A stretch of DNA of 64,000 nt from Spinacia oleracea (taxonomy: Eukaryota > Streptophyta > Magnoliopsida > Caryophyllales > Amaranthaceae): contig NC_079490.1 in assembly GCF_020520425.1 (NCBI RefSeq), positions 1,860,001-1,924,000 on the forward strand, written 5' to 3'. Under the pieces are notes generated by a model. That model made no database searches. It saw only the letters and a program-made list of their open reading frames with translations, and was not told the DNA's origin. Below are positions 46,997 through 49,900 of this stretch, piece after piece. The position numbers and the translations under genes were made by a program. Position 1 is the first letter of the stretch, and each line of letters starts with the position of its first letter.

Positions 46997-49900
46997 CTAA
47001 TCTTCTTCCTCGGCCTCATTCTCGGCAATGTTGAAGTACCTCAACTCGTATACGTTACGTTCCTTGTTGGAAGCAATGACGCGTAGCCAATCCCTCACAT
47101 TGTGCTTCTTCAAGTATTTCTTTGTCAAGTACTTCAAGTACCTAAAATAATTCAAAACCAGATGATCATCAGAGTGCAACTTCATCAATAATACAAGCAT
47201 ATCAAATTTGAAAATATTACTCCGTACAAGTTTAGGGTCTTGTTTTCAGAAAACCAAATCGGATTCATTTATCTCATTTGAAGAAAACTCTAACTTCAAA
47301 ATAGGAGAGTAGAACACAACAGGTGATGGAATCAGATCACTGAGATTTTTAAAGGTATTACTAACAAGAGCACTGAACAGTGGAGACATAACAAAACACA
47401 ACGATTTAGGCACACGGTGTATTAGGTAGAGCTGGCAATGGGTTGGGTTGGGTCAGGAATCAGGAGGACCCATTTATAAACAGGTTGAAATTTTCACCCA
47501 CCCATAATAAACAATCAACACTAGAAAACCTCTTGCAAGTCCCATTATAACATAACAGAATGGTAGATTCAACGAGGAAACCGGCAAAGATTACTTGTGA
47601 CAGCAATTATGTAGAGTGTACAAACCAGATATGCCCAAGAAAAAGGTACAAGTGGTTACACAGAAAAATAAGTTCAATTGCCATTGTACATTTCCTAGAT
47701 CTTAAATAACAATCACTCTGCCGAATTCATTGCATTGAAAACATTACAAGCAAAGACGTCAAACCATTCACAAGAGAATACAACCATCATATGGATAACG
47801 AACTTTCAAGTCCTCAACCCAAATACAAGCAGGAAAAACAACTTAAACACAAACCGAAAATACACATTGACCACTTTAAGACACATGGGAAGGGAATTGG
47901 AGGGAAATTTTGGAAGGAAAATGGAAGTACGCTCTTCCTGAGTCTTCCCTACCCTGCCCTCCCCCTCCCCTCCAGTTCCTTTCTCAAATGCAAATCAAAC
48001 AAAGTGTAACAATCATTTCAGCCCAATGCCACCTAGCTATCTCCAAGAGATTTTTTTGTAGTAAATCATAGAATTTGATAGAAAACACAGAGATAACAAC
48101 GTGAAGAGTTAACAGAGAATCACACTAACATATGCAGAAATCACCCAAATAAATGACAATGAATTTAAGGGTAACTAGCTTTTGAGCCCGTTCAATGAAC
48201 GGGCACTTACGTATTGGTTATTAAGCCGTCTTTTAAAGTGCTAATTTTATTGAGGGTTTGCGATTTTAGTGCGAATATTGGAAAAAAATATTTATGTATG
48301 AAAGATGGAGGTGACACTTGTCATATAATAATCAATAAGATGGATATAACACTTGTCATATTATAATCAATGGTTATCCTTTTTAAATACTAGGTATAGA
48401 TTCCTCATGGTAACCCCCTCCTAGTATTGACTTTTCTCAATGCTATACAGTTCTTAACTATGATGTAGAGTCAGAGACATTGTTTTTATTTTGACATGAT
48501 TCCAATTATATAAAACACTTGACAAGTCTAAGTCAAACAAAGAACAGGTGCATCTTAGAAAACATAAATAATGTGATTTAATAAAGGCTAAATGAAGTGG
48601 TTTGTTCGAGGCCACAATCGAAATGAGTAGTTCGAAAGGCACGGATAATCACAATGTTTCATATTGCCAACCTTCAATGCAAGATTTTCATCATTCTCAA
48701 TCTAATGACCTCGCTCTGCAAATTGGCAGTTTTCAACCACAACAAAAAACATCCATAAAGATGAAATTGCAAATTTAGTGTAGAGAAACAGAAAATGTAG
48801 TGACTTGTTCGAGGCCATAATCAACACAAACAGAATTCGAAAGGCACGGAGAATCACCCAATATTTTTATTGCCAACCTTCAATGCAAGATTGCATTATT
48901 CTAAAGTTAATGACCTTGCTCTGCAAATTGGCTAGTTCAAACTACAAATAATGAACACAAATTTAGGGTAAACAAACAGATAAAATGTAGTGACTTGTTC
49001 GAGGCCATAATCAACACGAACAAAGTTCGAAAGGCACGGAGAATCACCCAATATTTTTATTGCCAACCTTCAATGCAAGATTGCATTATTCTTAAATTAA
49101 TGACCTTGCTCTGCAAATTGGCTATTTAAACCCACGACTAATGAATACGTAGTACAAATTTAGGGTAAACAAAATAAAATAAAATAAAATGTGGTGACTT
49201 GTTCGAGGCCGTAATCAACACAAATAGAGTTTGAAAGGCACGGAGAATCACCCTATATTTTATGTTGCCAACCTTCAATGCAAGGTTTCATCATCTGATA
49301 GGATGACCTTGCTCTGCAAATTGGCATTTTACAACCACGTGAGCATACGTTTATTCCACACAAAATCCAAACTCCGAATATAGCTCTAGAATTACACTAA
49401 GCATTATTTTCACGAAAACTTTATGACTGCAACCGATCCTGATTGACTATGACAAACATCTATTACCTTGGTAAATTTATCTGCATATTGACATCTTTCA
49501 CATTACACTCAACACTTAGTAACCCCAGGCTAGAGCCAAGAATCTATACATTTTTCTATAAACACAAAGAACACAAGTAATCAATAATGAAGAGAACATC
49601 ACCCAAATAATGACAATTAATTTAAGGTTAATTCCTCAAGGTATCCCCTCCTAGTATTGACTTTTCTCAACACAGTTCTTAACTAGATTGAACTGCATGC
49701 TAATTAGATGTTAGCAAATGTTAAATATTTGATGTGTTATGATTACTAAGCATATGAAAGACTACCCTACGGCCTACACGGCTACGCTTATTTTTAGATC
49801 TTCTCATCTTCACTCCCTCTTTTTTCTCTCCCTTGTTTTAACTGTCAGTAATTTTTTCCAAAAGCATTGGTCCCCTGAAATACAAGATGGGTGTGTTTCA

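Follow-up and report, generated by a model that had tools for sequence, protein, structure and literature searches.

Evidence for four tandem snoR86 genes in an intron of a spinach eL22 gene

The stretch of Spinacia oleracea DNA analyzed here, called the window, is 64,000 nucleotides long (contig NC_079490.1, positions 1,860,001 to 1,924,000). On its minus strand lies a gene for the ribosomal protein eL22, and the only intron that splits the coding region of this gene carries four direct repeats, named A to D. The intron also holds a small Helitron-like element, which lies downstream of the array and is separate from it. The features are listed in window coordinates.

46997..47141, minus strand: eL22 coding exon 2, to the stop codon (splice AAGAG/GTTTCA...TTTTAG/G)
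47142..50967, minus strand: eL22 host intron, 3,826 nt, GT...AG ends, phase 2, predicted from sequence
48175..48400, minus strand: 226-bp Helitron-like element, A/TCTATACC...GCCCGTTCATTGAACGGGC...CTAG/T
48590..48727, minus strand: snoR86 copy A, decayed, with TCA in place of ACA, a C-to-A change in the left 3' guide and A.C in the lower stem; RF00303 78.0 bits
48793..48932, minus strand: snoR86 copy B, intact boxes (H ATAAAA, ACA); RF00303 100.6 bits
48983..49122, minus strand: snoR86 copy C, intact boxes (H ATAAAA, ACA); RF00303 100.8 bits
49187..49325, minus strand: snoR86 copy D, first in the transcript, intact boxes (H ACATAA, ACA); RF00303 100.9 bits
50968..51200, minus strand: eL22 coding exon 1, from the ATG

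The spliced product predicted for the host gene is 125 amino acids long and matches the Ribosomal_L22e family of Pfam (PF01776, 1.4e-47), and its best match in the PDB is the eL22 chain of the large subunit (1.3e-67). An initial annotation of this DNA had placed the array in the sense orientation inside the large intron of a ribosomal protein gene. This holds, as the minus strand is the eL22 coding strand, and with the predicted splicing copies A to D lie within the intron of an intact eL22 gene, with ~1.64 kb of intron between the 5' splice site and the array and ~1.45 kb between the array and the 3' splice site. A telo box (AAACCCTAA) is found ~190 nt upstream of the eL22 ATG, and no site II motif was found upstream nearer than ~800 nt to the ATG. 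The genome has three eL22 genes. Around the other two, at C4:55.6 and 166.9 Mb, no snoR86 over the cut-off was found in 9.5 kb searched at each, indicating that eL22 genes do not carry the array as a fixed feature.

The repeats are 138–140 nt each, with starts 190–204 apart, and the four repeats of about 140 nt that had been placed at 48590-49325 proved exact to the base. The closing stem GCCAA/TTGGC (GCCAA/UUGGC in the RNA) and the H-box candidates quoted for them (ATATGA in copy A) are present in all four, and the ACA that had been claimed three bases from the end in three copies is indeed there in B, C, and D, with TCA in copy A. Other tandem arrays were seen in the window at 40403-40578 (59-bp unit, 3.0 copies), 34745-35076 (117-bp unit, 2.8 copies), and 61703-62023 (158-bp unit, 2.0 copies).

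An Rfam covariance scan of the whole 64-kb window gave four matches over a gathering score, all to the box H/ACA family snoR86 (RF00303, cut-off 40 bits), at 78.0–100.9 bits and with E-values of 1e-12 to 4.7e-18 for 64 kb. With all four copies over the gathering score and a best E-value of 4.7e-18, a chance origin of these matches is excluded, and the description of the repeats as H/ACA-like snoRNAs passes the covariance-model check. A permissive Rfam scan of 47000-51000 added only two matches, both at chance level and far below their own cut-offs. The array is best classed, by its match to the model, as four copies of the known plant box H/ACA snoRNA snoR86. The RF00303 model itself starts 11 nt inside the RNA, leaving out the 5' strand of both the closing stem and the pocket, and in its consensus the right side of the 5' pocket is self-paired. 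Once the missing 5' strand is added to the span of the model, the RNA comes to 138–140 nt. The full-length copies found here would allow a corrected Rfam model with its 5' end repaired.

The anatomy of the RNA was compared across 13 full-length genomic copies (four from the window and nine from elsewhere), with three of the 16 over-cut-off copies left out as shortened or split. An H box of the form ANANNA lies in the hinge of all four window copies and of all 13 full-length copies, and an ACA stands three nucleotides from the 3' end in 12 of the 13, the exception being copy A. In H/ACA RNAs the distance from pocket to box is 14–16 nt. Here the upper stem is 14 nt from the H box and 15 nt from the ACA position in 13 of 13 copies. 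In their minimum-energy folds, B, C, and D show two hairpins, a single-stranded hinge, and a short 3' tail, and copy A deviates at the hinge and 3' hairpin. The named H/ACA structure of 26 pairs is paired in 95.0% of 338 cells, versus 21–49% for slid versions. Covariation is thin: 2 of the 26 pairs changed on both sides, a number reached in 14 of 500 shuffles and likewise by two of six slid versions of the structure (-3 and +2). Folding energies compared with shuffles give z values of -3.2 (D), -2.3 (C), -1.5 (B), and -1.4 (A). The opposite strand, tried for D and C, folds as well (z -2.6 and -1.8), so energy alone gives no strand and the covariance model does. Folding energy alone is weaker evidence than the Rfam score.

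Conservation in the alignment is concentrated in the functional parts of snoR86, with 15 of 16 columns invariant in the 5' pocket and 13 of 18 in the 3' pocket versus 17 of 50 in the apical regions. Two proposals of the initial annotation do not survive this comparison. Variation of the H box within the ANANNA pattern had been taken as a sign of selection, which is a weak argument for a match in an A-rich hinge; the hinge has the lowest mean column identity (0.80) of the 12 elements compared, and the idea was dropped as proof of selection. Copy D had been suggested as a guide for another site on account of its different 5' hairpin. This is ruled out by 3' guide bases identical to those of B and C and by the same 5' pocket columns in the alignment.

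For the target of the guide pockets, an ad hoc scan covered 478 U in the 18S rRNA of the same genome (locus L041), with U within ~13 bases of an end skipped. The best 18S site for the 3' pocket is U364, with a score of 32.6, where the left guide forms 10 pairs and the right guide 4, each including one G-U. The 3' guide bases are common to B, C, and D, and 3 of 500 shuffled guide pairs match their U364 score. In copy A the left guide is mismatched at one base, and 19 of 500 shuffles match the score of its guides. The second-best site, U385, scores 31.8 and nearly ties with U364, so the scan alone makes no choice between them.

The position favors U364. Human U71/SNORA71, discussed below as the vertebrate counterpart of snoR86, has Psi406 as its target. 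Human Psi406 lies 22 nt upstream of Um428, and in spinach U364 lies 22 nt upstream of U386, whereas counting 22 nt downstream from U385 leads to an A. Human Um428 is given as wheat 18S U384 in PMC10743738. The argument from the 22-nt offset assumes that wheat U384 is U386 here and that the stretch is free of gaps between the species. The 3' pocket likely directs pseudouridylation at 18S U364, which is probably equivalent to human Psi406.

The 5' pocket, with UUUGCAGA on the left and AUUGAAGG on the right, would match a U between CCUUCAAU-like and UCUGCAAA-like flanks. No target above shuffles was found for it in 18S rRNA, where 316 of 500 shuffles reach the best score, and the best scores in 5.8S, U2, and U5, compared without a shuffle control of their own, are below the 18S best.

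Copies of snoR86 are found well beyond the eL22 intron. A whole-genome search, in which 45 of 113,095 first-look candidates were scored and which therefore gives lower bounds, placed snoR86 over the cut-off at no fewer than 16 places in at least 10 loci, with at least three more below it (28.4 bits). Two copies lie at C4:141.5 Mb with snoR21 and snoR160. A single copy at C6:123.05 Mb (L045) is accompanied by snoR41, SNORD25, and a sub-threshold match to snoZ155. Upstream of the snoR41–snoR86–SNORD25 cluster at this locus, at ~5400-5465 of L045 on the minus strand, four head-to-tail telo-box repeats (AACCCTA) are followed by a TATA-like TATATAAACC stretch. Telo boxes are described for plant snoRNA promoters in PMC3022908, and the sequence upstream of the C6:123.05 Mb cluster is of this kind. 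A three-copy array is found at C1:71.58 Mb (L043:4821-5521, minus strand). A possible host for it was sought in the proteasome gene RPN9 and rejected: a lone sub-cut-off RPN9-like piece (19–20 bits) lies ~3.3 kb upstream, and the RPN9 pieces that pass the cut-off lie on C6. For the C1:71.58 Mb array, three of the 26 listed ORFs were searched in Pfam, and these gave no intact host gene.

These other loci bear on whether the array works at all. It could consist of snoR86 pseudogenes, relics in an intron, with working snoR86 supplied by clusters elsewhere, C6:123.05 Mb and C4:141.5 Mb among them. The loss of the ACA box and one guide base in copy A would fit this, as would the C6 copy in its cluster behind telo-box repeats and a TATA-like stretch and the absence of the array from two of the three eL22 genes. 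What makes this reading unlikely is the state of the other three copies. Spacer identity has fallen to 51–66%, yet B, C, and D retain both boxes, the spacing, the 3' guide bases, and almost every stem pair.

A second alternative comes from mobile DNA. Five of the other loci (L046, L047, L048, L049, and L051) have a unit in common, with A/TCTCTATT at its start (TTTCTATT in L049). In L046, L047, and L051 the unit ends in a hairpin GCACGC/GCGTGC followed by CTAG or CTAA before T; the same 3' end was sought in L048 and L049 and not found there. Such a 5' TC start after A and a 3' hairpin with a CTRR end before T are hallmarks of Helitrons. The unit spans 1.64 kb in L047 (L047:4370-6011). All five unit loci carry snoR86, which is full length in L046, L047, and L048, shortened in L049, and split by ~5 kb in L051. 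In four of the five snoR41 also passes its own cut-off, L048 being the exception. At a sixth locus, L050, snoR86 is reduced to its 3' part, and a 69-base match to the Helitron end lies ~0.9 kb further on. A genome search with the unit, in which 40 of 2,494 candidates were scored, returned at least 52 matches, at least 28 of them in its last 223 bases; the 3' end of the unit belongs to a family with many more copies. A Helitron-like element has captured a snoRNA segment that includes snoR86 and carried it to five or more loci.

The initial annotation had named genome-wide scattering of the repeat as a transposon as something that would refute it. This is partly true of the snoR86 family, in which five of nine other loci lie in Helitron-like copies, and not of the eL22 array. 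An element that carried snoR86 to at least five loci could in principle have brought the repeats into the eL22 intron, and the 226-bp Helitron-like element adjoins the array. Such an import is nonetheless highly improbable. No Helitron ends (5' TC and 3' hairpin-CTRR, between A and T) were seen framing the array when its flanks were read by eye, and homology of the array to the unit copies does not extend beyond the snoRNA and the sequence next to it (up to 189 bases). The 226-bp element has other termini, and its empty site lies outside the array, being kept in the paralogous flank at 49596-49660 on the other side. A Helitron origin of the array was rejected on these grounds. Pieces of this element match many places in the genome (75 matches), and it is unrelated to the snoR86-bearing unit. 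A chance resemblance to an H/ACA RNA by another kind of repeat, whether microsatellite-like or a transposon array, would fit the dispersal of snoR86 copies, and its probability is negligible in view of the Rfam E-values, the exact H/ACA spacing in 13 of 13 copies, and the complementarity to 18S rRNA.

The best explanation is very probably that four tandem snoR86 genes lie in one eL22 intron, with B, C, and D probably functional and A probably decaying. The precursor would be the eL22 pre-mRNA, and the snoRNAs would be cut or trimmed from its intron and then assembled with the complex of dyskerin, NHP2, NOP10, and GAR1, so that the 3' pocket could pseudouridylate 18S U364. B, C, and D would probably add dosage in step with a ribosomal protein.

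The history of the array can be read in part from the copies themselves. Identity among the window copies is 79–96% in the cores (six pairs) and 51–66% in the spacers (three pairs), with 96.4% for the B/C pair. In a tree, D groups with copy b at C1:71.58 Mb (95/94) and A with copy b at C4:141.5 Mb (95/96), and B and C group with the remaining copies with weak support (77/88); 3 of 10 inner branches are well supported. For each of the subtypes D, B/C, and A there are relatives elsewhere in the genome, which suggests that the array reflects old duplications and that the subtypes appear to predate the present loci. The eL22 array and the C1:71.58 Mb array also share spacer and flank sequence, at 81% over up to 562 bases. 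An old tandem duplication would have been followed by a later one giving B and C, and this pair looks like the youngest duplication step in the eL22 array. Sequence exchange between snoR86 loci may have occurred as well. Within the intron, ~85 bp of sequence is directly repeated on both sides of the array, at 48145-48460 and 49602-49685. These flanking repeats are the trace of a larger duplication.

The tandem-gene reading can be extended to a broader picture, in which Helitrons spread a snoR41–snoR86 cluster, often in decaying copies, the eL22 array, old and with three subtypes, serves as a main source coupled to a ribosomal protein, and the nearly invariant 5' pocket guides a second site. 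This combination is doubtful. Helitron capture could by itself be a route by which plant snoRNA clusters scatter.

No published description of snoR86 in eL22 was found in the main text of the papers searched, few of which come from subscription journals. By covariance model, the four copies belong to the same family as Rfam snoR86 (RF00303), all over the cut-off. In a table of PMC2653536 snoR86 is entered as the counterpart in plants of vertebrate U71, and the target of chicken U71 is given as 18S-367, paired over 8+3 nt by the 3' hairpin; the listed counterpart U71/SNORA71 thus has an 18S target through its 3' hairpin, as proposed here. Human SNORA71 can also pair with 28S position 4502, where no modification was seen in a yeast test, according to PMC8522698. 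The chicken U71 gene is placed by the table of PMC2653536 in intron 3 of "PRS17," presumably RPS17, whereas the eL22 array is in a plant and has four copies in one intron. For plants, PMC3022908 counts 15 cases in rice, clusters or single snoRNAs, that lie within introns of ribosomal protein genes, treats intronic snoRNAs as the exception in Arabidopsis, and mentions plant clusters of homologous snoRNAs. The intronic clusters of ribosomal protein genes in that account, in which eL22 and snoR86 are not named in the part available, are of the same kind as the eL22 array. That introns of plant ribosomal protein genes can carry snoRNA clusters is established, the snoR86 family is known, and the arrangement is ordinary for plants. 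The array offers a clean example of a plant tying an rRNA guide to a ribosomal protein gene.
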